DNA from: Rhodothermus sp.
GTDB lineage: Bacteria; Bacteroidota; Rhodothermia; Rhodothermales; Rhodothermaceae
DNA: 64,000 nt
Direction of reading: 5' to 3'
Assembly: GCA_026989375.1 (NCBI GenBank)
Contig: JALSJJ010000099.1
Coordinates: 1-64,000, forward strand
The translations under genes were made by a program, and so were the position numbers. Position 1 is the first letter of the stretch; every line of letters starts with the position of its first letter. The notes beneath the pieces were generated by a model. The model saw only the letters and a list, made by a program, of their open reading frames with translations. It was not told the DNA's origin and ran no database searches. This document shows, in pieces, positions 13,888 through 54,962 of this stretch.

Positions 13888-16767
13888 TTATAACCGCCGG
13901 GCCAGCGCAATGATGGTGAGTGTGCTGGCGGCAATCGAAGCGATGTCGGTCAGCGTCTTGCCAATGTCGAACGTTACCTGACGCTTTTCCTCCGGAGGCT
14001 TGCGCACCACCTCAATGATGGCCCCTTCATCCACGACGGGATCCCGCTGGAACCAGCCCTTCAGTCCCAGATAGACCGGATAGGTTCCTCCGTCGGCCTG
14101 GGTCACCAGAATAACCTTGGAGTCGTCATCCAGGCCCCCGGCGCGCTCGATGTAGTAACCCACACGCTTACCACGCACGTACTTCACCAGTCCCGGTCGT
14201 CGTACGTTCCCCCGCACCACCACAGTCCCGGGTTTGGGCGGCACGCGGATCTCGTCGCCCGGCAACAGCACAACGTTATGTTGCGGATCGCGCCGCACGG
14301 CCCGCTCCATGTCGATCACCACAGGTAGCCCGCCCCGGATCAACCGAGCTCCCTTCAGGTAGCCGGTAGGACGTACCCCACCAGCTCGCTCCAGTACATC
14401 GGCCAGGGTCTCATTTTCTCGCAAAATCGTATAGGTGCCCGGATACCATACCTCGCCCGAGACGGTCACGGTCTGCTGTGGACGAAAGGCAGGATTGCTC
14501 CGAATGTAGACGCGATCACGGTGCTGCAGGCGAAATGTGCGGGCGCCACGCAATGCACGCGTCGTATCGTCCAGCGCAAACGAAACCGCTTCGACATCGT
14601 CCATATCCTCGGCCATAGGGACCTGAATGCGCACGGCGAGCTGTTCGAAATGATCCGGATCGGCCCCTTTCGGCAGACGGGTTACTTCCGCCCAGTCCAA
14701 CAGGGCATCTTCCGTAAAACCACCGGCCCGCAGGATCAGATCTTCCAGCGTCATGTTCTCCTGCCAATGATATTGGCCCGGATTTTTGACAGCTCCACTG
14801 ATCGTGACGAATTTCTCCCGGATCTCCTGCACATCGATCGGATAGATATGGAGGCGATCACCTGGTTGCAGCAGCGCACGCCCGGCTCCCTCATTACGCA
14901 GTGCTTCGGCCAGATTGAACGGGATGATTATCTCCCGCGTGCCCTGCTCGACCTTACGAATCAGGTCAGCGCGTTCCAGATAGACCTCCCTGAGAAACTC
15001 CTTGTCGAACAGCCCGCCACCCAGGAAGAGCAGGTCGTAGACGGTCATGCTATCCCGCCAGGCATAGACGCCAGGATGGCGCACTTTACCAGAGATTTCG
15101 ACCGTTCGGGGCGCGTTCAACTCCAGCTCCGAATAGACGCGAACCCGATCACCCGGCTGCAACATCAGGTTGTGTTCGGGATCGCCCAGCAGGATGCGCG
15201 CCAGATCGAGCGTTCGCATCGTCTCGAGCAGCGCCAGGGTATCTGTGGTGTCTGAAAGTATCTCCCGGGTGAGATCGGGCCGAAATACTGAGGGAGGCCG
15301 CTCGGCCGGGTTCTGTTTGAAGCGAAGGAGCTGAACGCGGCCTTCGTAGACGTCGCTTGTCACACCTCCAGCGCGCTCGATCAGATCACGGATCGTCCGC
15401 ACCTGCGTGGTGATCTCGTAGAGTCCTGGATGCACGACCGCCCCACTGATATGAACGCCATTGCGGCTTACGTCAAGCACCGAGAGCACCTCGACGCGAT
15501 CGCCATCATAGAGCGGCACCTGCCGCGAGCCATCCAGCACCCCATCAAGCGGCACAGTAAGCACCTCGCGCACCACAGAAGGGTCCTGCCGCTGCTCAAA
15601 GGGAATGATGCGTTCAATGCGGACGTACCGGGTAAACGCCTCGGGCTTCAGGCCAGCCGCAAATTGAATAAGCTCGCGCAATCCTTCGTTTTCCTTGAGC
15701 TCGTAAATGGCCGGACGCCGCACCTGGCCCTGAATGGCTACGGTCTTGCCGCGTGGGGGCACGAAGAGCTGGTCATTGTTCTGCAGGCGTACATCCTCAC
15801 GTCCTTCCCCCCGCAGCAGATAGTCGTAAAGGTCTACACGGGCCAGCACCTGACCGTTACGCACCACGCGCACGTCGCGAAGCGACCCGCTGATTTTAGG
15901 CCCCCCTACGGCATATAAGGCCTGAAAGACCGTCGACTGGCTGGCGATCACATAACCACCGGGGTGTTTTACCTCGCCCAGTGCATAAATATAGACCGGC
16001 TGCAGCCGGGCAACAGTCAGATCCATAAAGACCGTAGGGGGATCTTCCAGTAACCCGGCGTAACTGCGGGCCAGCCAGCGTTTGAGTTCTTCCCGGAGCA
16101 CCTCCAGCCGCTTACCGGCCACGGTGAACTGCCCGACGTTGGGCACGAAGATGCGGCCTTCACGGTCGACCGTCAGGTCGTAGGCAAACTCCGTGGCGCC
16201 CCAGACCATCAGCCGTAACTCGTCGCCGGGTCCTACCAGATACTGATCATCAACCGGCCCCAGTTGGTTGGGACGAAAGGCGTCTGGAATGTTTTCAAAA
16301 ACGTCATACCCGAAATATGGCAGCGTGTCAGCCGGAGCACGCGTCTCCTGCCTTTGAAGCGTATCGCGCCGCAATCGTAACGTATCGGCCAGCGCCCGCA
16401 GCGTGTCGATTGCCAGCGTATCCTGAAAGCTGAGTGGATAGACACCGGGCGTCAGAATGCGCGGAAGCTGCTGGGTCTTTTCCTGTTGCACGGCCTGCAG
16501 CATGGCCTGAATCTGGCTTTCAGGAATGCCCAGCTCCCGAGCACGTTGCACGGCCTGCTCGGGATCGGACAGGTCGATACCCAGCCGCGCCGCCTCTTGA
16601 CGCGCTTCTTCGAGGCTCATCCCACGCCGTTGCAGCTCCTCCTGCACCGGCTGCGGAATATCCTGGGCATACGATACGGCAGCTAAAAGCCCCACGCCAA
16701 ACCACAACGACAGCACTATTCCGGCAAACAGCGGCCACCGGCGATTCAATCGATACATAACACCCAT
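13888..16767 (-). CDS. multi-SLBB polysaccharide export protein (Wza-like)
   Basis: Poly_export motif 'YLVGPGDELRLMVWGATEFAYDLTVDREGRIFVPNVG' followed by about seven SLBB-type repeats ('ISGxVxxPGxY...AGG'); start at 16767 gives a signal peptide. Confidence 0.85.
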   Translation of the reverse strand: MGVMYRLNRRWPLFAGIVLSLWFGVGLLAAVSYAQDIPQPVQEELQRRGMSLEEARQEAARLGIDLSDPEQAVQRARELGIPESQIQAMLQAVQQEKTQQLPRILTPGVYPLSFQDTLAIDTLRALADTLRLRRDTLQRQETRAPADTLPYFGYDVFENIPDAFRPNQLGPVDDQYLVGPGDELRLMVWGATEFAYDLTVDREGRIFVPNVGQFTVAGKRLEVLREELKRWLARSYAGLLEDPPTVFMDLTVARLQPVYIYALGEVKHPGGYVIASQSTVFQALYAVGGPKISGSLRDVRVVRNGQVLARVDLYDYLLRGEGREDVRLQNNDQLFVPPRGKTVAIQGQVRRPAIYELKENEGLRELIQFAAGLKPEAFTRYVRIERIIPFEQRQDPSVVREVLTVPLDGVLDGSRQVPLYDGDRVEVLSVLDVSRNGVHISGAVVHPGLYEITTQVRTIRDLIERAGGVTSDVYEGRVQLLRFKQNPAERPPSVFRPDLTREILSDTTDTLALLETMRTLDLARILLGDPEHNLMLQPGDRVRVYSELELNAPRTVEISGKVRHPGVYAWRDSMTVYDLLFLGGGLFDKEFLREVYLERADLIRKVEQGTREIIIPFNLAEALRNEGAGRALLQPGDRLHIYPIDVQEIREKFVTISGAVKNPGQYHWQENMTLEDLILRAGGFTEDALLDWAEVTRLPKGADPDHFEQLAVRIQVPMAEDMDDVEAVSFALDDTTRALRGARTFRLQHRDRVYIRSNPAFRPQQTVTVSGEVWYPGTYTILRENETLADVLERAGGVRPTGYLKGARLIRGGLPVVIDMERAVRRDPQHNVVLLPGDEIRVPPKPGTVVVRGNVRRPGLVKYVRGKRVGYYIERAGGLDDDSKVILVTQADGGTYPVYLGLKGWFQRDPVVDEGAIIEVVRKPPEEKRQVTFDIGKTLTDIASIAASTLTIIALARRL

Positions 16768-16977
16768 GCTAACCTGCTGGATAGGGACGCTCACTGTTCC
16801 AGAAAGCCCACAGCCCGACAAGATACGGACCACAATTAGCTGTCTGGTCTGCTGTATGCAGTTTAAGATACAAATTCCCTTCAGCAGCGTGCGACACTTC
16901 ACAAAAATCCCAAAGACCTATGGAAAATTGCACCGCCCACCGGTAGGATTTGCCATTTTCTTGATAGGACAGCCTCC

Positions 16978-33226: not shown

Positions 33227-33991
33227 CTACCGAAAGATCAACCGAAAGGCCGCCACCCCTAATCCCAACTGCGCAATGCCCAGCGCAATGCCAGCCCGAA
33301 GATCAAGTGCCCGGATACGCGGGCGCAACGTCGGATCTCCGGTTTCTTCATAACGTGCATAAAGCCGGTCCGCCTGAAATTTGTAGTGAACAGATACGGC
33401 CGTCGCAGCCACGGCCACGCCAAGTGCAGCATATGTAATCCAGCGCCGACGGCGTACGGTGGGTCCTCCGGGCTGCACCTCAGGAACGGACGTTTCCAAC
33501 GGTTGCAGATAGACCCGATGGCGATTCCATACCTGCTGTCCGGGCCACAGGGCAACCGGAGCGTAGCCAGGCCGGACGAGATAAAGTGTATCCTGAAGCG
33601 GCGCTTCGAAGGCGTCCCAGAAAGGGGTTTCGCCCAGGAATCGCTGGCGTTCGGATTGCCTCACAAAAATACGGGCCCCAGAAGGCACTGACTCGATACG
33701 GTAGTGGTATCGGAAAGTCACCGTGATTTGAAGTGTATCAGCCGTGGTGTCTGGCAACATGACTGTACGGGCTGGAATGGCCCAGGTATCACCTTCGGGG
33801 GGCACCACGCGCAACATGCGTTTGCCAGCAGGTAATCGGAAGATGTGATAGCGCGCAGGTCCCAGCAACACTGAATCGGCATAGACCAGCGCTTCCGGCC
33901 AGTTTGTGCTGAGCACGATGACCGGCTGCGTCTGGCCTGGAATTGCCAGCCAGCACGTAAAGCTCAGGCTAAGGATGTGTGGCCACTTCAT
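33227..33991 (-). CDS. PEGA domain-containing membrane-anchored protein
   Basis: Signal peptide; 'RYHYRIESVPSGARIFVRQSERQRFLGETPF' PEGA-like; C-terminal hydrophobic helices; overlaps upstream gene by 23 bp. Confidence 0.75.
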   Translation of the reverse strand: MKWPHILSLSFTCWLAIPGQTQPVIVLSTNWPEALVYADSVLLGPARYHIFRLPAGKRMLRVVPPEGDTWAIPARTVMLPDTTADTLQITVTFRYHYRIESVPSGARIFVRQSERQRFLGETPFWDAFEAPLQDTLYLVRPGYAPVALWPGQQVWNRHRVYLQPLETSVPEVQPGGPTVRRRRWITYAALGVAVAATAVSVHYKFQADRLYARYEETGDPTLRPRIRALDLRAGIALGIAQLGLGVAAFRLIFR

Positions 33992-35105
33992 GAGTGGTTT
34001 GCAGCAGATAAACCTGCCGGGGACGCGTCAAAACGACCAATCCGAAAGCAGATCTCTCCAGATCAAGCACTCCCCCTTTCAGCCTAGTTTCCCAGCGCAG
34101 AACGCCGGTTGCCAGCTCCAGCGCCACCAAGCGGCCGTGCAGGTCTCCTACGTAGAGCACGCCAGCCGTGGTATCGGCTACGGGTGCCGCCACCATGGCA
34201 GTCCCGCCCGTCCACGACCAGCGCAACGTGCCAGTGGCGCGTGTCAGCGCTCGGACGACGCCGTCACTTCCGGCCACATACACGGTCTGTTCGACGACCA
34301 CGGGCGTTGTGAGCTGGATGGAGGTATCGGGCAGTGCCAAGGTCCAGGCCACTGTGCCGGAGGCGGCCTGCAGCGCTACCAGTCGGCCCCGTGTGGTGGG
34401 CAAAAGTACCCGATCATCGACTGGAAGAGGATCGACATACACAGGCCAGCATTGCTGCTGCCAGCGCAACCGGCCTGTTTCGGTCTCCAAGGCCACTACC
34501 CGTCCCCGTTTGTCGGCTACCACCAGCAGATCCCCTACTCGAATCGGCCGTGCGCGCACGCCTTCCAGACCGGTCACCTCGGGCTCCTGCACCCAGCGTG
34601 CTTGTCCGTCTCGCACATCCAATGCATACACCCGTCCCCACCGCTCGGCCACATACACGACGTTGCCTTCCAGCGTCAGACTGGCCTCCACGCCATTACC
34701 TACGTGACGCCAGACGATCCGGCGGCGATACAGGTCGTAGGCCACTACTGAAGCTCCACCAAGGGCTACCGGTACTACGAGTACAGTCCCGTGCAGCACC
34801 GGCGCTCCCAGCAGGTCCCGCCCTGCATCAAGCACCCCACGTCGGCGGCCTTTGGGCAGTTCAAACGCATGCACGTCGCCCTTTCGATTGGTGACCAGCA
34901 GGAGGCGGCCAGCCACAAATGCCCGGGCCGGTGCGGCCTCAACGCCACGCTGCCAGCGTACCCCCAGCGGAGGCGCCACCGTCCATCGTGCTGTTACCGG
35001 GGACACCAGCATCCTCTCGGGCACCTGCAACGAGCGACAGCCGCCTTCTGTAAGCAACATGGCCAGTCCGATCGACCCCCACACCCAGTGCTTCAAAAAT
35101 CCCAT
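33969..35105 (-). CDS. PQQ-like beta-propeller lipoprotein (BamB-like)
   Basis: Lipobox 'LLTEGGC'; repeated 'GRVVALETETGRLRWQ', 'GRLVALQAASGTVAWTL', 'GVVRALTRATGTLRWSW', 'GRLVALELATGVLRWE'; overlaps upstream gene by 13 bp. Confidence 0.88.
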   Translation of the reverse strand: MGFLKHWVWGSIGLAMLLTEGGCRSLQVPERMLVSPVTARWTVAPPLGVRWQRGVEAAPARAFVAGRLLLVTNRKGDVHAFELPKGRRRGVLDAGRDLLGAPVLHGTVLVVPVALGGASVVAYDLYRRRIVWRHVGNGVEASLTLEGNVVYVAERWGRVYALDVRDGQARWVQEPEVTGLEGVRARPIRVGDLLVVADKRGRVVALETETGRLRWQQQCWPVYVDPLPVDDRVLLPTTRGRLVALQAASGTVAWTLALPDTSIQLTTPVVVEQTVYVAGSDGVVRALTRATGTLRWSWTGGTAMVAAPVADTTAGVLYVGDLHGRLVALELATGVLRWETRLKGGVLDLERSAFGLVVLTRPRQVYLLQTTHEVATHP

Positions 35106-38041
35106 CCAAAGAAAAACTGACGGAAAAACCGTTCGCGATATCGAAAGCCATCACGGTAACGATAGCCCATATCGTAGCGCAACACTAACCCACCCAGCAG
35201 ATTCAGCCGGAAGCCCAGACCAACGGCACCGATTGTTTCCCCTGTGTAAAGTTGCGGCTCCCGACGATCGTAGCGATCGTTCCACGCATGGGCCGCATCG
35301 AAGAACAACGCCCCCCGCAGGTTAGCAATACCAAACGGTGCCAGCAGTGGCATGTAAAGCGAAGGGGCTTCAAGGATCGGGAAACGCAGCTCATGGGAGG
35401 TAAACCAGAGCTTGCGCCCTCGTACGTTAAACAGTGGAAAACCACGCAGATCCCAGCTTCCTCCCAGAAACCACAGCCGTGCTTCACGACCTTCGTTGAT
35501 GCGGAGCAGTCCCCAGGAAGCCAGCGTGACGTTGCGCGTCAGGCGCAGATAGTGGCGTACATCCAGGCTCAGTGTATAGTAGCTGACGTTGGCGTAGCGC
35601 AGATCGGTGGTATATCCCAACGTCAGATTGGCCCGCCCCCCCTCAACCGGTCCGTTGGCCCCATAGAGCGCATGGTCATGCACCAGGGCCAGCGCATTCG
35701 ACAGAAGCAGGGCCCGACGTCGGACACCTCGGATGGCTACGCGTTTGTCGCTCCAGGCCAGCGCCGTGTGCAGCTCAAGACGACGGAAGGTAGAAAGTGG
35801 ATAGCTCAGCGCCCCGTAGGTGCCCACCAGTTCTTCCCAGAGCAGCGGATATTCGGCGGCAGCATCTGGGTCGGTCAGGTCGAAACGCAGGCCGGCAAAC
35901 CGATAGATTCCGTAGCCAACATTTGTGCGACGGTGGAGCTGCACGCGGGAGACGGCCACGTTCAACCCTTTGAGCAGCTCGCCACTTCCCCGCCCCGTGT
36001 GAAAAACCGTCACGTACCACCGGTCATCGCCCAGTAGATCTGAAAAAGCCAGCGCGGCACCGCCCGTTGTACCCCAGAGTGCGCTCTGGCTGATGCTGAT
36101 GCCGCCATAGGCTATATCCAGACTGTAACGTCGATGGTAGGGTCGGCGTCGGACGCCGCTCTCGGTCGAAAGACGTCCGGGCTGCCACGGGGGAGGGCTG
36201 CCCAGCAATGCCACCGTCGCCTGCTGATACGGACGGGCCAGTCGCTCGGCCACATTCGGGATATAGCGAATGGTGAACCGATAGTGCTCAAACGCGCTGA
36301 AGAGCAGGTGTCCGTCGGACGTCCATATGGGATCAAAGGCAGCGGTGGCCAGATTGGTCAATCGGTAAAGTCGCCGCACCGGCGGCCCGACAGCCTGTGC
36401 CCCTGTCTCAGGATAGGCAGTCGCTACCGGACGGACAGACAGCCGGGGCATCACTTCGACCGCCCAGATGTTCTGTGGGCTAAAACGACCCTCGTCCCCC
36501 ATCACCGCACTGGCAAACACGACGTAGCGGCCATCCGGGCTCCACCGGGGCTCCCGATCACGCCGCCATCCATCGGTGAGCTGGCGAATCTGCCCGGTAG
36601 CAAAGTCGTAGAGAAACAGATTCATCCCGTACCGTTCGCCCCAGGCCGTGCGGTCTGAGGCAAAGGCCAAATAGCGGCCGTCTGGACTCCAGGACGGATC
36701 GCGATCGTCATAAAGGTCACGTGTGAGCCGCTCAAGCTGGCCGCTCGCGGTATCCAGCACATAAAGATCGATCCATCCCCCGTCGTCGATCGCACTGAAG
36801 GCCAACCGCTTGCCGTCCGGGCTCCAGGTCGGGCTATAGAGCGCCACCAGATGGGGGAATCGGTACGTGCTAAGCAGTGCTTCCCGTTCCAGATCGTACA
36901 GATGCAATACATCTCCTGCACCACTCCGGGTCGTGAAGGCCAGAACGCCGGCGAACGATACATCCATGCGGTCTTCCAGCAAGCTCACCGACTCAAAGCG
37001 TTCGCTCCGGCCGGTACGAATCAGCACCCGTGGCGTACCTGTTGGCCGATAGGTCGCATCAACCGGAATCGCATACAGGCTGGTGGAGGTGCCCTCGTTG
37101 CCCAGATAGTACACAAATCGCTGGCCATCACGCCGTCGATACACCACCGGTTTTGTGCTGATCCCCCGCGCCACGATTGCCCGGGAAGCCAGTGAGGGCA
37201 GCGTGCGATGCGGCAGCATCGGTAGATAGCGCAGCTTCAACCAGCGCTCCCACCGATCTGATATCCGGTAGAAATCTTCGCCCAGTACGTGCTCCATCAC
37301 ACGCCGAAAGTCACGATCCATCCAGAACTGCTCGATCAGCTCCAGCAGTTTTTCCTCGCCGTAGGTCTCGGCAATGAAGTGGCAAAGCGCCTCCCCTTCT
37401 TTGTACATGAGAAAGGTGCCATACGTGCGATCCATGTTTTCCAAGGGGGCCAAGTAGTTCGCATAGAGCGCATCTCGAAGGATCATCTCATGCTGGTCGT
37501 CTGGCGGCCCCGACCAGTACTCAGCCAGTCCTTCGGTAAACCACAAGGGCAGATAACGATCGGGAGGCATCCGATGATCACGCAATACCTGAAGCGCCCG
37601 ATGGAACGTAAACACGTGGACGAGTTCGTGCCAGATCACTCGCCGAAAACGATAGAGATTGCCGCTGGCCGGAATCACAACCCGCCCTTTGATCAGCTCG
37701 AAAAAGCCAGCCACGCCTTCCGGGACAAAGCCCGGTATTGTGTTTGTCTGCTGGAAATGATAAGGCGCCGCATAAAAAATAATCGGTGTACGCTGCGGCA
37801 GGGCATAGTTAAAGCGCTGCTGGAGTGTGCGATAGGCCTCCTCGGCAAAGTAGGCGCCATGCTCGGCCAGCACCTGCATTTCGGGATAGTAATAAATGTC
37901 AAAGTGCTCTGTCTGCAACACATGCCAGTCGAAGCGCTCGTACTGGATTTTGTTTTTCCCGAAGTGTGCCTCGTAGAACTGAGCTGACGCAGCCGATACT
38001 GTCAGCACATACAATCCCAGCCCCGGCAGCAAAGCACGCAT
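35093..38041 (-). CDS. peptidase MA-like (HEXXH) + TolB-type propeller + Omp85/BamA-like outer membrane barrel fusion
   Basis: HELVH at residues 138-142 with 'WFTEGLAEY'; 'SPTWSPDGKRLAFSA', 'DPSWSPDGRYLAFAS', 'EPRWSPDGRYVVFAS'; C-terminal 'GGSWDLRGFPLFNVRG' and final aromatic-rich strand ending FGWDF. Confidence 0.88.
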   Translation of the reverse strand: MRALLPGLGLYVLTVSAASAQFYEAHFGKNKIQYERFDWHVLQTEHFDIYYYPEMQVLAEHGAYFAEEAYRTLQQRFNYALPQRTPIIFYAAPYHFQQTNTIPGFVPEGVAGFFELIKGRVVIPASGNLYRFRRVIWHELVHVFTFHRALQVLRDHRMPPDRYLPLWFTEGLAEYWSGPPDDQHEMILRDALYANYLAPLENMDRTYGTFLMYKEGEALCHFIAETYGEEKLLELIEQFWMDRDFRRVMEHVLGEDFYRISDRWERWLKLRYLPMLPHRTLPSLASRAIVARGISTKPVVYRRRDGQRFVYYLGNEGTSTSLYAIPVDATYRPTGTPRVLIRTGRSERFESVSLLEDRMDVSFAGVLAFTTRSGAGDVLHLYDLEREALLSTYRFPHLVALYSPTWSPDGKRLAFSAIDDGGWIDLYVLDTASGQLERLTRDLYDDRDPSWSPDGRYLAFASDRTAWGERYGMNLFLYDFATGQIRQLTDGWRRDREPRWSPDGRYVVFASAVMGDEGRFSPQNIWAVEVMPRLSVRPVATAYPETGAQAVGPPVRRLYRLTNLATAAFDPIWTSDGHLLFSAFEHYRFTIRYIPNVAERLARPYQQATVALLGSPPPWQPGRLSTESGVRRRPYHRRYSLDIAYGGISISQSALWGTTGGAALAFSDLLGDDRWYVTVFHTGRGSGELLKGLNVAVSRVQLHRRTNVGYGIYRFAGLRFDLTDPDAAAEYPLLWEELVGTYGALSYPLSTFRRLELHTALAWSDKRVAIRGVRRRALLLSNALALVHDHALYGANGPVEGGRANLTLGYTTDLRYANVSYYTLSLDVRHYLRLTRNVTLASWGLLRINEGREARLWFLGGSWDLRGFPLFNVRGRKLWFTSHELRFPILEAPSLYMPLLAPFGIANLRGALFFDAAHAWNDRYDRREPQLYTGETIGAVGLGFRLNLLGGLVLRYDMGYRYRDGFRYRERFFRQFFFGWDF

Positions 38042-46667: not shown

Positions 46668-47999
46668 TCAGTCAATATACGGATTCGCACGGCGTTCAAT
46701 AACGGTAATGGGGAAGAAAGTCCCCGGTCGACGCACCGCCGTCCCATCCGGCCGCCATTCAGGCGACGGATCATCGAAGCGATAATGATCCGCCAGGCGC
46801 CGTCCCTGCAGAAACAGGTAGGCCTGTCGGCTGAACCGAAGCATCTCGATTGGTTCGATACCCGAAACCGAAGAATTTGTAGTATACGGCGTTAAGCCAT
46901 CACGCACACGAAGCTGATTAATGTGGTTGGCAAATCCTTGTAGATTCCCCTGCGCCAGCGCGGCCTCTGCCAGGATCAAGTGCATTTCCCGTTCCGAGGC
47001 TACCGTAATATCCGTATAGTTTTCGGACGAATGAAATGCCATGATCTCCTGCTCCACATAGGGATGCACGACATCCGTATCGATAATGTCTTTGAAGATC
47101 ACCGCCTCTGTCCGTTTATTATCTGGCGTTGGTTGGATATAGGTATCCCCAAAACGCATTTCCAAGCGGCTGTTCACCTGCCAGCCGATGCCGGCCACCA
47201 CCACATCCGGTGCACTGGGATCCAGGTCCAGCACCACCCGCTCGTCTGGATCCACCAGGGCCAACGCCGCCTGCGCATCGGCGACCGCTCCAGGATCATT
47301 TACCAGCGCATTCACCTGCACATTCCCCGGGAAGATGAGGGCACGAAGCGCCCGGCTATATTTCGCCCGTGCCCGGAACATGAGCAACTGGCCCCGCAAA
47401 TCATCATCGTTCAGGGCCTCAGCAATGGCAATGGCCTTGTCCAGGTAACCGATGGCCGTTGCATAAACCTGATCCAGGTTTTCCCGGCCAATCGGTGGCG
47501 CTGGCTCTTGCCGGTTGGAGAACGCAAAATCATCAAACATATCCCCAATGACCACATAAATGATTGCGCCATAGAGATAGGCTCGAGCCAACGCCCGTCT
47601 ATCCGTTAGCGCCCCTTCTTCTTGGAAGCTCTCCAGACGTTTGATTACCTCGTCTGCCCACCATCGAGCTTCCGCCACATAGGGAAAGGCGGCGTCCGTG
47701 AATTCGTTAAAAGGATCGTCAATATTCCCAAAGTCCAACTGTTGCCAAGCATCTCGCGAGCCCACCCACACCAATTCATCGGTCGCTGTAGAGTAGGGCG
47801 CCATCATCGCATAGACGGCGCGCGTCACCGCAGCTTCCACCCCATTGACCATAGGAATAATCGCTGCGGGATTCCCCAGATCTTCCTCAACCAGGTTGTT
47901 CGGGTTGTTAACGTCCAGCAGATTACATCCTGTGAGCCCCAGACTCAGGATTAAACCAAGGGCCCACAACCCTGTCCGAATTCTCTTATCGTAACGCAT
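46668..47999 (-). CDS. RagB/SusD family outer membrane lipoprotein
   Basis: Lipobox 'LGLTGCNLLDVNNPNNLVEEDL'; SusD-like TPR region and 'FLQGRRLADHYRF' near the C-terminus. Confidence 0.88.
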   Translation of the reverse strand: MRYDKRIRTGLWALGLILSLGLTGCNLLDVNNPNNLVEEDLGNPAAIIPMVNGVEAAVTRAVYAMMAPYSTATDELVWVGSRDAWQQLDFGNIDDPFNEFTDAAFPYVAEARWWADEVIKRLESFQEEGALTDRRALARAYLYGAIIYVVIGDMFDDFAFSNRQEPAPPIGRENLDQVYATAIGYLDKAIAIAEALNDDDLRGQLLMFRARAKYSRALRALIFPGNVQVNALVNDPGAVADAQAALALVDPDERVVLDLDPSAPDVVVAGIGWQVNSRLEMRFGDTYIQPTPDNKRTEAVIFKDIIDTDVVHPYVEQEIMAFHSSENYTDITVASEREMHLILAEAALAQGNLQGFANHINQLRVRDGLTPYTTNSSVSGIEPIEMLRFSRQAYLFLQGRRLADHYRFDDPSPEWRPDGTAVRRPGTFFPITVIERRANPYID

Positions 48000-48018
48000 G
48001 GCAGTCTCTCCGTGTGGG

Positions 48019-51000
48019 TTAGAAGCCAAACCGAACCGTGAAGGTTACGCGCCGCGGCAGTACAAAGCCAAAGGCATCCACGCCATCGAGGTAGTTCTGC
48101 GAAAGCTGGCTGCCACTGCCGCGTCCCACGGCATTAACTTCGGGATCCGGCCCGTCATAGCGCGTCCAGAGTGCCAGGTTACGCACGCCCAGCGTGAACG
48201 ACAGCCGGTCAATCCCCCAGAGCCGCTGGAGCTGCGAGCGCGGCACGTCATAGGTAAGGCTGAGCTCCCGCCAGCGCAGGAAATCGGCGGGTTTGATCGT
48301 GTTCAGACCACTGAATGGAGCCAGTGCCAGCAATTCGTTCAGCCAACGCTCCAGCGCCCGAAGCCGCACCTGGGGATCATTCTTAGGATTGCCGTTGGCA
48401 TCTATCCCACCGGTCGCATAATCCCGCACCACCTCCGCAGACCACGGCAGGTTACGGCCAATGACCGGGTTCGCCTGCCGGAAGGCGAACGTCAGGTTGT
48501 TGACGTAATAGTTACCGGCCTTGAACTCAAAGGCGGTATAGAGCCGGAAATTGCGCAGGAATCGAATCGTCGCGCCGAAAGATCCCTGCCAGTCCGGCGT
48601 GGGCTTCCCGAGGTAGTGGTCCAGCAGATCGCCGTCGCCATCCTCGTCGGCCAGCAGCACCAACGCCAGCGACTGCGGCATGCTGACCCGCCCGTTGGCT
48701 GGATTAATCAAATCTTCCGGTGTGAGTGTGGCCAGATAGGCCAGCACTTCGTCCCGCGTATCGGGCTGCCCATCGCCGTTGAAGTCCACCGGTAACCGAT
48801 CAGGACCTGTGGGGAGCAACTTTGCACCAAAGTGGGCACCCGGTGCATATCCTTCAATCAAGAAATTACGATAGCGTGGGTAACTACCACCCACCTTAAT
48901 GGGCGGCGCACCACCCATGTCCGTCACCTGTTCCCACAGATACGAAGCATTGGCAAATACATCGATCGACAGGTTTTCACTATTGTAGAGGTTGCCTTTC
49001 AGGCCCAGTTCTACGCCACGCGCCTTCAGCTCTCCGATGTTGGTCAACTGACGTGCCCGGAATCCTCCCGTGACCGGGAACTGCTTATCTACCAGGGCAT
49101 CGCTCACAACGCGGTCCCAGTACGTGGCTTCTAAGGCCATCCGGTCCTGCCACAATCCCAACTCTACCCCCACTTCCCATTCGGTAGAAATCTCCGGCTT
49201 CAACTTGGGATTCCCCAGATTACCGGGCGCGATACCTGGCCCACTAACCGAGGCCAGCGGCACATACGTTGTCAATGCGTCGAAGGCCCCTGGTTGCAAC
49301 CCGGATTGTCCGATGGCCGCACGCAACCGCAGGGAAGAAATTGGCCCCAACGGACGCCAGAACGGCGCATCCGAAGGAATGAAGCTCAGCGAAGCCTTGG
49401 GATAGAACACCGCGTCGAACTCTGAACCAAAAGCGCTGTTGGCGTCCAGGCGTCCGCCCACGGTCAGGAACAGATAGTCATTGAATCCGATCTGCTCCTG
49501 GGCAAAGATACCCAGGTTCACCACTTCCAGGAACGACTCAAACACAGTCTGCTCGGCTGCGCCACCCGTCACGTCAATCCCCGGCCCGGGGAAGCGCCGT
49601 CCTTCGGCCGACGATTCAATACGCCGCGTAATGAACCCCTGCGTTCCCAGGATAAAGACAGACTCCAGCGAAGAAGTCAGCCGCGTACGATGCGTCATCT
49701 TGATGTCGGCCGTGATATCCAGCGTGTTGAGGTCATCGATACGCCGCACTCCCTCTGGATTGTAGCCGCTGAACTTGTCAATATTCCACCCGAAGGGAAA
49801 GACTTCACGGCTGAACTGGTTGACGACATCTACGCCAAAGGTGGCGTCAAACATCAGCGGCCGTGAGGGACGATAGTTCAGATTAATACTGCCAAAGAAA
49901 CGGTCCACATCCTGGGAGTAGATCTGCTGCAGCCCTTCATTGACCGTCATGAAGGCCGGCGAGCCCGTCTGGTTGTTGAAGCGCACCAGCTCGGGCTTAC
50001 TGAACATGGCCAGCGTAAAGGCCGCAAAGATATTATTGTTGTTGTTGGGCGTCTCATAGTGACGCCGGGTCAACCCTGTCGATACACCGATCCGCAGCTT
50101 ATCGCTCGGAAAGATATTGACGGTTGCCGTCGCCTGAGCAATCCGGTTAATGTCAGCAGAAAGCGTACGCACACCCGGCGGATAGCGCCGTCCCGTCTTA
50201 CCGCCAAACGGTCCATCCTCGTCTGCATAGCGTAGATTCAGGAAATAGGTAACTCCCGGCGTCCCTCCGGAAACAGAAGCGGTGTAAGATTGCAGGTATC
50301 CCGTTTCAAACAGCTCATGAATAAAGTTTTCCTGCACCAACTCGAAAGGCCGTACGGGCCGTCCGAGATACCTTGACATGGTATCTGCAACCGCCTGATT
50401 CCATGCAAATCCTGTGTTTGCCGGATAAATCCGCGGGTACCAGGCGGCTCCCTGCTCAATCCGGAAACTAAACCGCGGCGGCCCTACCGCGCCTCGCTTG
50501 GTAAAGATTTGAATGACGCCATTCGAAGCTTCGGTCCCATAAAGCGTGGCAGCAGCCGCTCCCTTCAGAATCTCAATGCGCTCAATCGCTTCAGGGTCCA
50601 GGTCATCCAGTCGCGAGGGAGAGCCTCCTCCTCCCGTTCCTACAAAGCCACCAAAACCTCCGCCCCGGTTGATGCGGATACCATCAATGTAAACAACCGG
50701 TTCATTACTCTGCGAAAGGGAGGCCGAACCGCGAATGCGAATCCGTGCTCCTTCTCCCGTGAGGCCACCTGAGGGCAACACAGCCACAGAAGGCTCACGC
50801 GCCAGCAACATCTCGGAGAGATTTTGCACCGGCGCCAACTCCAGTTCCGCCGCATTGATGGTAGCAATGGTGTTCCCCAGGCGCTTGACTTCGACCGGCC
50901 CGCCTGCACCCGTTACCACCACTTCCTGCAGGTTCAGGGCCGTCTGATACAGCGCAAAATCGACCGTAACCGTCTCCCCTTCTTCTACAGTAACCTGCCG

Positions 51001-51246
51001 CGTTTCTGTGCGATATCCAATAAAGCTGGCCTCCAACGTATACGTCCCTGCCGGAACCCGTTCAATCGTGTAATTTCCGTCAATATCCGTAGCCGCACCT
51101 CGCAACAGCTCACGAATCACCACATTGACTCCCGGAATGGGATCCTGTGTGTCGGCGTCTACTACGCGCCCCTTGATCGTCCCCTGCGCCAGCACACTTC
51201 CAGGCAATAGTAGCAGCCACAACCAGAGCACATGTTTTGCGCGCAT
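48019..51246 (-). CDS. SusC/RagA family TonB-linked outer membrane protein
   Basis: 'GTIKGRVVDADTQDPIPGVNVVI' CarboxypepD_reg-like domain, plug 'SSNGVIQIFTKRG', C-terminal 'RRVTFTVRFGF'. Confidence 0.93.
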   Translation of the reverse strand: MRAKHVLWLWLLLLPGSVLAQGTIKGRVVDADTQDPIPGVNVVIRELLRGAATDIDGNYTIERVPAGTYTLEASFIGYRTETRQVTVEEGETVTVDFALYQTALNLQEVVVTGAGGPVEVKRLGNTIATINAAELELAPVQNLSEMLLAREPSVAVLPSGGLTGEGARIRIRGSASLSQSNEPVVYIDGIRINRGGGFGGFVGTGGGGSPSRLDDLDPEAIERIEILKGAAAATLYGTEASNGVIQIFTKRGAVGPPRFSFRIEQGAAWYPRIYPANTGFAWNQAVADTMSRYLGRPVRPFELVQENFIHELFETGYLQSYTASVSGGTPGVTYFLNLRYADEDGPFGGKTGRRYPPGVRTLSADINRIAQATATVNIFPSDKLRIGVSTGLTRRHYETPNNNNNIFAAFTLAMFSKPELVRFNNQTGSPAFMTVNEGLQQIYSQDVDRFFGSINLNYRPSRPLMFDATFGVDVVNQFSREVFPFGWNIDKFSGYNPEGVRRIDDLNTLDITADIKMTHRTRLTSSLESVFILGTQGFITRRIESSAEGRRFPGPGIDVTGGAAEQTVFESFLEVVNLGIFAQEQIGFNDYLFLTVGGRLDANSAFGSEFDAVFYPKASLSFIPSDAPFWRPLGPISSLRLRAAIGQSGLQPGAFDALTTYVPLASVSGPGIAPGNLGNPKLKPEISTEWEVGVELGLWQDRMALEATYWDRVVSDALVDKQFPVTGGFRARQLTNIGELKARGVELGLKGNLYNSENLSIDVFANASYLWEQVTDMGGAPPIKVGGSYPRYRNFLIEGYAPGAHFGAKLLPTGPDRLPVDFNGDGQPDTRDEVLAYLATLTPEDLINPANGRVSMPQSLALVLLADEDGDGDLLDHYLGKPTPDWQGSFGATIRFLRNFRLYTAFEFKAGNYYVNNLTFAFRQANPVIGRNLPWSAEVVRDYATGGIDANGNPKNDPQVRLRALERWLNELLALAPFSGLNTIKPADFLRWRELSLTYDVPRSQLQRLWGIDRLSFTLGVRNLALWTRYDGPDPEVNAVGRGSGSQLSQNYLDGVDAFGFVLPRRVTFTVRFGF

Positions 51247-51286
51247 AGCCTCTCCCGGAATGTTTTCGGTTGGTCAACTCGTTTGC

Positions 51287-51318
51287 CAAAATTAGAACAT
51301 TCTTTGCCATTACTTCAA
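51287..51318 (-). promoter_or_regulatory. candidate Bacteroidetes-type promoter for susC-like gene
   Basis: Minus strand TTG (51316-51318), 21-nt spacer, TAATTTTG (51287-51294) matching TAnnTTTG. Confidence 0.5.
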
Positions 51319-51329
51319 GATTTCATGAT

Positions 51330-51382
51330 GCTGAACGGTTGAAATAACACGCTGAATGGTTCAGAATCTTGGCTCAATGGTT
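51330..51382. repeat. three direct repeats at exactly 21-bp spacing (putative activator sites)
   Basis: GCTGAACGGTT (51330-51340), GCTGAATGGTT (51351-51361), GCTCAATGGTT (51372-51382). Confidence 0.65.
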
Positions 51383-51782
51383 TACAGGGGCTCATCTATA
51401 TAGAGCTCCCGTCTGCGTATCTGAATAAACAAGGCGCCTGTTTCCTTTCCGGAAAGAGGCTGCTGGGCCATGGCGCTTTTTAACTCTGCTGCAACGCGCG
51501 GACACCTAAGTCAAGAAACGGGGCTTCAATAAACAGACGCAGCGCTTTCAGTGCCTACTGAGGCCTGGCCCGGATCAAACGCAAAAGGCGTCAGCGTTCT
51601 GTCAGGCTATAAAAAGTGCCTTCCGTTTGTCTTTTCTGCAGGATGAGACCGTATCGCTTCAGGGAAACCGTGGGCCTTGCCCGCACACACAGGTTGCTGC
51701 AGGCATCAAAACCGTCTGGTCATGGACGTGCGGCTTGCGTTTGTTGGGCTCTGCGCACGGGCGCTCTGGGCAGAACGTCAGG

Positions 51783-52676
51783 TCAGCGTCCAACAATAAA
51801 CGTATACTGCACCCTTGCATAGCTCCCGAAAACGCCCCGCCCTCCCGAGACATGTTCCAGGACAGCCGGGATCTCTCCAGGCGAGAGGGTCGAGCCCCCT
51901 TGCTGTACAGACTGGGTTCGGATCAGGTCATACAGGTTGTCGTCCAGCGCGCTAATCGTCACTCGGTTGGGTCCGTAGAAGAGCACAGCCAGCCAGGGTA
52001 ACCGTAGTCGAAGCGTCCCGTCAGGCATTTCCCGGTAGTTGGCTTCATTCAGGATAGGCGATCCACTTACGCGCAGTTCCTCAAGCGTAAAGGTGCTGTC
52101 TTCGTAGAGTGCTCGCCCCAGCGGCGTTAGATTCTCTTCGGTCGGCTCCAATGCCTCGGTGGTGATGATGTAAACGGCCTGGCGGCCGGGATACTCGCTA
52201 CGTGTCATGAACAGTTCCAGGCGCACCTCGCTCTGGTAGCGCACGGAGTCAAGATTGGCGCCTAACACTCGAAAGGTATCGGGTACTGTCGTTTCGGCCG
52301 TCAATAGTGTTCCATCGGGCATTTGGGCCTCCAGCCGGTAAGTACGTAGCGGCTGCACGCGAGCCCTCCGCACCAGGGGAATCGGCACATAGTAACCCGG
52401 GGTGTCTGTATGCTCCTCGTATGGATACCAGCGTTCTGGCAGGCCCTGCGCGTCCAGCAATGCGATGCGTACCTGCGCCCCGCGTACCCGCACCGAGTCG
52501 GGCACATAGACTGCATTAATCGGCATTGTCCGCGTCAGCCATACCGGCTGCAACGGCTCTCCTGCGATCTGGTACGACTCGACCACGTACTCCGGCGTGA
52601 ATGAAACGGGCGCTACCTGATCGCAGCCAGCCCACCCGAACATCCCGACCAGTATGTACCAGAAAATACGCGGCAT
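51783..52676 (-). CDS. DUF4249-like lipoprotein
   Basis: Follows a TonB-dependent receptor gene; 'PEYVVESYQIAGEPLQPVWLTRTMPIN...VRGAQVRIALLD' as in DUF4249. Confidence 0.75.
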   Translation of the reverse strand: MPRIFWYILVGMFGWAGCDQVAPVSFTPEYVVESYQIAGEPLQPVWLTRTMPINAVYVPDSVRVRGAQVRIALLDAQGLPERWYPYEEHTDTPGYYVPIPLVRRARVQPLRTYRLEAQMPDGTLLTAETTVPDTFRVLGANLDSVRYQSEVRLELFMTRSEYPGRQAVYIITTEALEPTEENLTPLGRALYEDSTFTLEELRVSGSPILNEANYREMPDGTLRLRLPWLAVLFYGPNRVTISALDDNLYDLIRTQSVQQGGSTLSPGEIPAVLEHVSGGRGVFGSYARVQYTFIVGR

Positions 52677-52679
52677 GGC

Positions 52680-54962
52680 TCAAAACTGCAGGCTGAACGA
52701 TAGGTTGGGCAGCGGGATAGGAATCTGCGGTACTTCATTGCGCTTGACCTCTCCCTCGTGGTTAAACTCAAAGAAGTAGAACCACAGGTTACGTCGAGCA
52801 TACGCGTTCAGCACCTGAAACTGCAGCGTATAGTCGGCCACGCCAAAAAAGCGCCCGTGGCGCGTCAGCCCTATGTCGAGCCGATGGTAAGCGGGCAGGC
52901 GTGCATTGTTGTAGCCGGGTGTCAGGATCACGTTGCGTGTGTCTGCGCCAAATGGATCACGCGTAAGCCGATACTGCCCCGCCGGCTCCGTGTAGGCCTG
53001 TCCGGTGGCGTACGTAAAGACCGATGAAAGTCGCCAGTGCCGTGACAGGTTAAAGCGGACTACCAGGTTCACGTCATGTGTGCGGTCGTACTTGGGTGGA
53101 TAGAACTGCGGACGGCCGCGTTCGTCGAGGTTAACACCCGGGAAGCGACGGCGCGTGCGGCTCCAGGTATACCCCAGCAGTCCAGTGAATCGTCCTACAG
53201 AGCGTTGCAAAAGGACTTCTACGCCATAGGCATACCCATCCCCTACCCGAAACAGGTCACGGTAAGCGAGCCCGGCCACGTTCGGCAGAAATGGATCAAA
53301 CTCGAACAGCGCGCGCATGGTGCGGTAGTAAGCTTCTGCTTCTACATTGACGCCCGTCACCGGCTCCCATTTGGTACCGATGACAAACTGGTCTCCCCAA
53401 GCCGGTTTTACCCCCTCGGCTACGGTCAGCCAGACGTCAAAAGCGGTGATCAGTTCGCTGGAGATAAGGGTCAGATATTGATAATAGCGTCCATAACCGG
53501 CCTGCAAGCGCAGGTTAGCACGCGGGCGGTATTCAATCGAAAGCCGCGGCTCCAGTCGCATATACCGCCCGCGCCCGAAATAACTCAATCGGAGTCCTCC
53601 CTGCAATACCCAGAAGGCTGAGGGTCGGAACGTTTCCTGCAAATACAGGGCCCCATAGAAGGCATCAATCGAAGCCCGCATCCCCGCTTCTTCATCAAAC
53701 CAATCCTGCAATCGAAAGCGAAACAGTCCACTCCAGTAGCCCAGCTTAAGGGTATGCTTTTCGTCTGGAAAATACTCGAAGTCACCGCGCACGGACCAGT
53801 CTGTTACTGTGTTCCTGCGCTCAAAAGGCGTACCGGCCAGTTCGAAGGTTGGCAGGCTGAAATAGTAGGATCCGGTCAGCCGAAAACTCGCAAATAGCTT
53901 TTCGGAAAACAGGTGCGTCCATCCCGCTGTAGCCGTGCGGTTGCCGTAGGTGACGCGCAACTGGCTATCCTCCAGAAAAGGAAGCTGCAACACATCCTGC
54001 CCGGCGTAAAAAGCCAGTGAGAGCCGATCGTTGGCCGAAGCATCGATATTCAGTTTACTATTCAGATCATAAAAGTAAAACCGATCTGGCGCCCCCTCGA
54101 CGTTTTGCCGGCGCAGCACAGCCAGCAACGGTTCAATGGTCGAGCGTCGTACCGCGATCATCCAGGAGCCCCACCGGTAGGGGCCTTCCAGCATCAGACG
54201 TGAGGCCAGCATGCCGATACTCAGTCGGCCATGCGTCTCATAGCGATTGCCGTCTTTATTATAGACGTCCAGGACCGATCCCAGACGGCCGCCATATTCT
54301 GCTGGATAGGCCCCTTTGTAGAGCCTGACGTCCTTGATGGCGTCGGGGTTGAAAGTGGAAAAAAAGCCAAAGACATGCGTCGGATTATAGACGGTGGTGC
54401 CATCCAGCAAAATCAGCGTCTGGTCCGGGCTTCCGCCGCGCACGTACAGTCCACTGGAATAGTCGGAAGCGGCCTTGACCCCGGGCAGCAGTTGCAGCGT
54501 GCGGAATACGTCTGGCTCAAAAACTGCCGGAAGCTCCTGCACCAGGCGGGTTTCCACCTGGGTGACCCCCAGATTGCGGGCTTCCTCCAGCTCGCGTTCA
54601 GCGGTCACCACCACCGCATCCCCCGTTAACGGCTCGGGCTCCAGTGCAATATCCAGCCGCCGCGTCTCACCGGGTTGGAGCGTCAAAGTGCGTTGAAAAA
54701 GGCGGTATCCGAGATAGGATACGACCAATGTATAGGTACCGGGCGGAATTCCAGTCAGCGTAAAAAAACCGGCCGCGTTAGTGGCTGTGCCATATGTCGT
54801 GCCCTTGAGCACAACGTTGGCAAAAATCAGCGATTCACCCGTGGTGGCATCCCGAACGAATCCGTTGATCGTGGCCGGCTGCGCTCGACTCCCTACGGCC
54901 AGCAGCAACCCACCGATCAGGACAAACCAGCAGCCCCGCATGCCCATCTTTATCAGGTTCAA
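52680..54962 (-). CDS. TonB-dependent receptor with carboxypeptidase-regulatory-like domain
   Basis: 'TINGFVRDATTGESLIFANVVLKGTTYGTATNAAGFFTL', plug 'LPGVKAASDYSSGLYVRGGSPDQTLILLDGTTVYNPTHVFGFFSTFN'. Confidence 0.92.
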   Translation of the reverse strand: MNLIKMGMRGCWFVLIGGLLLAVGSRAQPATINGFVRDATTGESLIFANVVLKGTTYGTATNAAGFFTLTGIPPGTYTLVVSYLGYRLFQRTLTLQPGETRRLDIALEPEPLTGDAVVVTAERELEEARNLGVTQVETRLVQELPAVFEPDVFRTLQLLPGVKAASDYSSGLYVRGGSPDQTLILLDGTTVYNPTHVFGFFSTFNPDAIKDVRLYKGAYPAEYGGRLGSVLDVYNKDGNRYETHGRLSIGMLASRLMLEGPYRWGSWMIAVRRSTIEPLLAVLRRQNVEGAPDRFYFYDLNSKLNIDASANDRLSLAFYAGQDVLQLPFLEDSQLRVTYGNRTATAGWTHLFSEKLFASFRLTGSYYFSLPTFELAGTPFERRNTVTDWSVRGDFEYFPDEKHTLKLGYWSGLFRFRLQDWFDEEAGMRASIDAFYGALYLQETFRPSAFWVLQGGLRLSYFGRGRYMRLEPRLSIEYRPRANLRLQAGYGRYYQYLTLISSELITAFDVWLTVAEGVKPAWGDQFVIGTKWEPVTGVNVEAEAYYRTMRALFEFDPFLPNVAGLAYRDLFRVGDGYAYGVEVLLQRSVGRFTGLLGYTWSRTRRRFPGVNLDERGRPQFYPPKYDRTHDVNLVVRFNLSRHWRLSSVFTYATGQAYTEPAGQYRLTRDPFGADTRNVILTPGYNNARLPAYHRLDIGLTRHGRFFGVADYTLQFQVLNAYARRNLWFYFFEFNHEGEVKRNEVPQIPIPLPNLSFSLQF

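Follow-up and report, generated by a model that had tools for sequence, protein, structure and literature searches.

A metallopeptidase-propeller-Omp85 fusion that co-occurs with a BamB-like propeller lipoprotein in two phyla, suggestive of an uncharacterised outer-membrane-protein-handling machine

We analyzed a stretch of 64,000 nucleotides from Rhodothermus sp. (GenBank assembly GCA_026989375.1, contig JALSJJ010000099.1, positions 1 to 64,000), hereafter the window, which contains a unit of three overlapping genes. Their products, of 982, 378 and 254 amino acids, are denoted here FUS, PQQ and PEGA, respectively. FUS joins a metallopeptidase, a TolB-type propeller and an Omp85 barrel in one protein, PQQ is a BamB-like propeller lipoprotein, and PEGA contains a PEGA domain. 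In two phyla, FUS and PQQ are retained or lost jointly, a pattern suggestive of an uncharacterised machine for the handling of outer-membrane proteins. The features of the unit, with the evidence for each, are listed below.

35093 to 38041, minus strand: FUS, metallopeptidase/TolB-type propeller/Omp85 barrel fusion, 982 amino acids (open reading frame, Pfam, 107 aligned orthologues)
37187 to 37981, minus strand: gluzincin-like peptidase domain of FUS, residues 21-285 (Peptidase_MA_2 match, low-confidence model)
37616 to 37630, minus strand: HELVH motif of FUS (H138, E139, H142; all three invariant in 107 of 107 orthologues)
37529 to 37543, minus strand: WFTEG motif of FUS, E170 being the candidate third zinc ligand (invariant in 107 of 107)
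36242 to 37186, minus strand: TolB-type beta-propeller of FUS, about residues 286-600 (PD40 match, 1.8e-23; phmmer matches to TolB structures)
35096 to 36139, minus strand: Omp85-type barrel of FUS, about residues 635-982 (Omp85 Pfam match, barrel profile against the PDB)
35435 to 35452, minus strand: DLRGFP, the "(V/L)RG(F/Y)" motif of the Omp85 L6 loop (R866 in 107 of 107 orthologues, G867 in 106 of 107)
33969 to 35105, minus strand: PQQ, BamB-like propeller lipoprotein, 378 amino acids, with the start codon within the 3' end of the FUS gene (PQQ_2 match, 1.3e-38)
33227 to 33991, minus strand: PEGA, with a signal peptide, a PEGA domain and a C-terminal two-helix hairpin, 254 amino acids (PEGA match of 21.7 bits, alignment, hairpin statistics)
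33230 to 33448, minus strand: C-terminal transmembrane hairpin of PEGA, about residues 182-254 (helix and Lys/Arg counts in relatives)

To follow the distribution of the genes, genomes were searched with a PQQ profile, a match being considered full-length when it covered most of 389 positions. A full-length PQQ was detected in 15 of the 16 FUS-containing genomes versus none of the 34 genomes without FUS, and the exception (G266) encodes a diverged PQQ adjoining FUS (locus L120). Linkage does not create this pattern because, in four of the positive genomes (G331, G342, G132 and G263), PQQ is located apart from FUS; in G342 and G263, PEGA follows the distant PQQ. Among the Gemmatimonadota, where the genes are mostly unlinked, 15 of the 21 FUS-positive genomes contain a PQQ match versus 0 of the 20 FUS-negative ones, and in G374 and G372, a match to the PEGA profile follows PQQ. 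The respective Fisher test values, 7e-12 and 1e-6, ignore the relatedness of the genomes. In a 27-genome rpoB tree, FUS undergoes at least 4 changes if well-supported branches are considered and 6 in the best tree, each of them matched by PQQ, with G266 (adjacent, diverged) and G368 (weak match) counted as PQQ-positive. On the well-supported branches, this corresponds to agreement in 4 of 4 independent pairs (sign test, 0.125), too few events for significance. Thus, the coupling that an initial annotation of this DNA had read from the overlap of the genes extends to their presence and absence in both phyla, including genomes in which they are unlinked.

The overlaps between the open reading frames in the window are 13 bp for FUS and PQQ and 23 bp for PQQ and PEGA, the values originally given. 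The conserved feature is the tight coupling of FUS and PQQ, not the exact length of the overlap: many relatives could start PQQ at TGATG, with a 1-bp overlap, and conservation of exactly 13 bp was accordingly rejected. In the order that includes the source organism, PQQ lies directly 3' of FUS on the same strand in 50 of the 50 loci fetched, and PEGA comes next in all 48 loci for which the contig is long enough. Other families of the phylum contributed 36 loci, of which 32 have PQQ directly after FUS and 29 have PEGA following; when FUS stands by itself, PQQ is mostly encoded at another site in the genome. In two Gemmatimonadota loci (L009 and L137), PQQ is convergent to FUS and overlaps it. 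The neighbors of the unit in the order are IcmF and, usually next after the module, YqeY and CvpA. Because YqeY and CvpA are found near FUS in only 1 of the 36 loci outside the order (L117), the module is retained while its surroundings change. The three-gene linkage, which the initial annotation had marked as the part worth testing, therefore persists beyond the order, and the consistent separation of homologues that it had named as counter-evidence was not seen, FUS being mostly linked to PQQ and PEGA. Operon conservation alone is no proof of joint function, and the three genes might merely share their expression while the products perform unrelated jobs. Such an explanation has very little probability, given that the presence and absence of FUS and PQQ agree even when the genes are apart and that, outside the order, the genes that flank the unit in this operon have not been retained.

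The association with PQQ and PEGA belongs to the FUS clade rather than to the architecture in general because paralogues with the same architecture lack these neighbors. The window's genome encodes two more peptidase-propeller-Omp85 fusions, both with the HELVH motif (L126, 4663-7992 of contig C75, and L127, 7078-10353 of contig C226), and neither these nor two paralogues checked in other genomes have PQQ or PEGA next to them.

Of the 107 FUS orthologues aligned, 50 belong to the order, 36 to other families of the same phylum and 21 to Gemmatimonadota. Six residues of the peptidase domain, H138, E139, H142, E170, G171 and E174, are invariant in the whole set. This invariance is not a consequence of mere closeness because the identity to the FUS of the window drops to about 39%. 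The combination that characterizes MA(E) gluzincins, HEXXH with a downstream Glu ligand, both conserved, is present in FUS. Given that H138, E139, H142 and E170 are invariant in all 107 orthologues, the peptidase is probably active, with its activity under selection; variation in the HEXXH residues, which had been foreseen as grounds for abandoning the prediction, was not encountered.

The three Pfam matches in FUS, Peptidase_MA_2 (8.2e-11, residues 125-269), PD40 and Omp85 (7.2e-8, residues 798-948), all exceed the curated cut-offs and are preceded by a signal peptide predicted by inspection (residues 1-20). The HELVH and WFTEG motifs, the TolB-type repeats and the C-terminal barrel with DLRGFP were all correctly recognized in the initial annotation. 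Among solved structures, TolB comes closest to the propeller (phmmer, E-values down to 1.2e-23). By sequence, the barrel belongs to the Omp85 superfamily, scoring 32.7 bits on PF01103 against a cut-off of 24. A profile made from 38 barrel regions matches two PDB entries, BamA 4k3c (E-value 0.015) and the POTRA protein 9ccg (2.8e-5), the paralogues of FUS align to the Omp85 model through its last position, 325, and the C-terminal residue of the orthologues is aromatic (Phe or Tyr) in 107 of 107. No POTRA domain was detected in FUS at E-values up to 1, and there is no room for one because only about 45 residues separate the propeller from the barrel. FUS scores only 12.6 bits on the OM_YaeT/BamA model versus the required 297; the window's genome contains 8 Omp85 genes including FUS, and the larger ones encoded elsewhere in that genome likely include BamA.

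Structure models were built from a two-sequence alignment (the window and L009) and reached a mean predicted local distance difference test (pLDDT) value of 40 for FUS, with about 20 in the barrel, and of 56 for the peptidase domain. In a fold search with the latter, weak model, the best matches included collagenase G/H and M1 aminopeptidases, none with an E-value below 0.001, so this likeness is only a hint; a profile of the peptidase domain had no match in the PDB. An amphipathicity scan of the barrel yielded 26 peaks and is too coarse for a strand count. Thus, of the structural points raised initially, the Omp85 nature of the barrel stands on sequence, POTRA domains are lacking, and the barrel model stays at the low confidence given above. 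A search of viral contigs found no relative.

PQQ is the sole strong PQQ_2 gene of the window's genome (PQQ_2/BamB match). A lipobox is present in 80 of 89 relatives, most of which have LxGC. The PQQ of the window has a degenerate lipobox (TEGGC) that fails the rule passed by these 80, and its own lipidation is therefore uncertain. In Bacteroidota, acidic residues after the lipoprotein Cys mark surface export (PMC12578637). Because such a residue is absent in 74 of the 80 lipobox-bearing relatives, the most likely location of PQQ is on the periplasmic side.

Of the three products, PEGA shows the lowest conservation, and its match to PF08308 is a marginal pass (21.7 bits versus a cut-off of 20.8, E-value 1.9e-4). 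Two C-terminal helices were detected in 55 of 75 relatives. The loop of this hairpin contains a conserved K-A-D...D-P-x-L-R-P pattern and, on average, 6.3 Lys or Arg residues, compared with 2.8 and 0.6 for the flanking segments, and in several relatives, the hairpin is better conserved than the PEGA part. By the positive-inside rule, such a loop would be cytoplasmic, which places the protein probably in the inner membrane with the PEGA domain in the periplasm. The single outer-membrane complex of three products initially proposed is therefore supported only in part. With its probable inner-membrane hairpin and conserved charged loop, PEGA might instead be the relay of an envelope sensor, in which the propellers would bind a signal (an unfolded protein, a sugar or a cell-wall fragment) and the peptidase would free a signalling fragment, to be passed on by PEGA to the inner membrane. 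Certain genomes have FUS at a distance while PQQ and PEGA remain paired, which is compatible with this possibility. Nevertheless, we consider a sensor improbable: no regulator gene is consistently linked, the would-be relay is the least conserved part, and sensing does not require an Omp85-type barrel. As a separate observation, the window contains SusD-like and TonB-dependent receptor genes (46668-54962) with PEGA matches inside carboxypeptidase-regulatory-like domains, which are unrelated to the module, and a gene for polysaccharide export (13888-16902), whose 1004-residue product combines a Poly_export domain with many SLBB domains.

The scheme that we infer starts from the observed domain content, conservation of catalytic residues, gene coupling and co-occurrence, and adds the orientation of FUS, a physical complex, peptidase activity and the handling of clients. 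The Omp85 barrel would hold FUS in the outer membrane, while its TolB-type propeller and zinc-peptidase domain would project into the periplasm. There, PQQ would serve FUS as a dedicated propeller partner that, in most species, is tethered to the outer membrane by a lipid. Both propellers would keep the client close to the barrel, which may assist its insertion or release, and the peptidase may clip or clear stalled clients. PEGA would be an optional third part, probably anchoring the site to the inner membrane. We judge the chances to be evenly balanced that FUS and PQQ carry out such periplasm-facing handling of outer-membrane clients, that is, assembly or quality control, in parallel to the barrel assembly machinery (BAM). 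The main rival is self-secretion of the PlpD type, whereby the barrel would export its own peptidase-propeller portion to the cell surface to cleave outside proteins, with PQQ as a periplasmic export helper. FUS shares with PlpD the layout of an enzyme followed by an Omp85-type barrel, its catalytic residues are invariant, and surface delivery of an Omp85-linked metalloenzyme has been proposed (PMC4104836). However, the passenger would be large, about 600 residues with a whole propeller, and would have to be exported without POTRA domains; furthermore, the selective tie to a PQQ predicted to be periplasmic and to a PEGA that is probably in the inner membrane better fits a periplasmic site. We therefore regard self-secretion as unlikely.

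A different neighborhood surrounds FUS in Gemmatimonadota. In loci L145-L156, a gene of about 240 codons, the product of which is a probable lipoprotein, starts 1-4 bp before the end of the FUS stop codon and is followed by LptE (PF04390) and, in most of these loci, by a cytidylyltransferase-like gene that we read as RfaE2. This is an outer-membrane biogenesis setting, which also speaks for the handling of outer-membrane clients by FUS. The lipoprotein candidate has no match in Pfam or the PDB, and its resemblance to LolB, noticed by eye, was dropped on that account. In three further loci (L162, L166 and L167), a recurring alternative neighborhood is seen, in which PQQ is nearby and points away from a gene that, by eye, resembles asparaginyl-tRNA synthetase. 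The succession of FUS, an overlapping gene for a probable lipoprotein and LptE, mostly with the cytidylyltransferase-like gene, raises the possibility that FUS-PQQ is an accessory of lipopolysaccharide export that acts in the assembly or turnover of the LptD-LptE channel. The precedent is BepA, by which LptD is matured or degraded in E. coli (PMC8423444) and of which FUS-PQQ would be a built-in counterpart. No LptE or LptD neighbor exists in the window or the order, where the neighbors are IcmF, YqeY and CvpA, and this role appears to us distinctly unlikely.

Several observations weigh against periplasmic handling of clients by FUS and PQQ. FUS lacks the POTRA domains that are the usual docking part for clients and lipoproteins in Omp85 assembly factors, the barrel model with its pLDDT of about 20 yields neither a strand count nor a lateral gate, and PQQ scores 136.7 bits on the BamB equivalog TIGR03300, well under the cut-off of 285.2. 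Of the FUS-positive Gemmatimonadota genomes, 6 of 21 have no PQQ match, and several of the matches found are in larger open reading frames (546-845 amino acids) and perhaps represent generic PQQ proteins. Finally, a genome of the same genus (G006) apparently lacks FUS and PQQ, so the module seems not to be essential everywhere. In this genome, IcmF directly precedes a 5'-truncated PEGA gene that retains only its second half (L161, G006:C17 6837-10977), and both FUS and PQQ are absent; the gap looks like one deletion, although misassembly is possible in this assembly of 230 contigs.

Subject to these reservations, we tentatively propose a second outer-membrane protein machine beside BAM, consisting of a POTRA-less Omp85 protein with a built-in quality-control metallopeptidase, a dedicated BamB-like lipoprotein and an inner-membrane anchor, that would be gained and lost as a unit in Rhodothermota-like, other Bacteroidota-side and Gemmatimonadota lineages. 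The FUS-PQQ pair bears on whether a propeller lipoprotein can function in the absence of POTRA domains and on whether proteolytic quality control can reside in the barrel protein.

Among known systems, FUS is, by its domain content, assigned to the WD40-Omp85 kind, named in 2014 (Heinz & Lithgow, PMC4104836) for POTRA-less propeller-Omp85 proteins that were likened there to a fusion of BamA and BamB. Like these, FUS has a TolB-like propeller right before the Omp85 barrel; unlike those described in the text, it adds a HEXXH domain on the N-terminal side of the propeller and is accompanied by a PEGA gene and a distinct gene for a propeller lipoprotein. The suspicion that the fused architecture had already been recorded thus holds for the propeller-Omp85 part, the HEXXH part not being mentioned in that text, which also states that Omp85 proteins generally assemble or translocate proteins. 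In the literature searched, the coverage of which is incomplete, there is no mention of a HEXXH domain in WD40-Omp85 proteins, of PQQ or PEGA partners, or of their co-occurrence; novelty is not proven.

As in the BAM of E. coli, an Omp85 barrel is accompanied by a PQQ-type propeller protein, here predicted in most relatives to be a lipoprotein and to face the periplasm; unlike FUS, BamA carries five POTRA domains and lacks a peptidase, and PQQ falls below the BamB cut-off. BamB of E. coli binds BamA at the POTRA domains, and the BamA-BamB analogy is not supported in the form drawn initially, given the lack of POTRA domains in FUS and the score of PQQ. PlpD, the type Vd secretion protein, likewise consists of an enzyme domain followed by an Omp85-type barrel, with a patatin lipase and a POTRA domain where FUS has a gluzincin and a propeller. 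BepA resembles FUS as a periplasmic zinc metallopeptidase that works on an outer-membrane barrel protein at BAM, and differs in being soluble, with tetratricopeptide repeats and no fused barrel (PMC8423444). Outer-membrane assembly outside Proteobacteria is under revision, with two structures of Bacteroidota BAM published in 2025. The core of this complex is BamADGH (PMC12611786, PMC12578637), and term searches of both papers did not find the FUS-PQQ-PEGA module. The Bacteroides complex, from the same wider group of phyla as the window, also includes a propeller lipoprotein, BamI, which is six-bladed and surface-exposed, whereas PQQ is predicted to face the periplasm. One of these papers leaves undecided if BamB occurs in any member of the Bacteroidota (PMC12578637); a BamB-like lipoprotein does exist in lineages related to Bacteroidota, and its genetic partner is a different, peptidase-carrying Omp85 protein.

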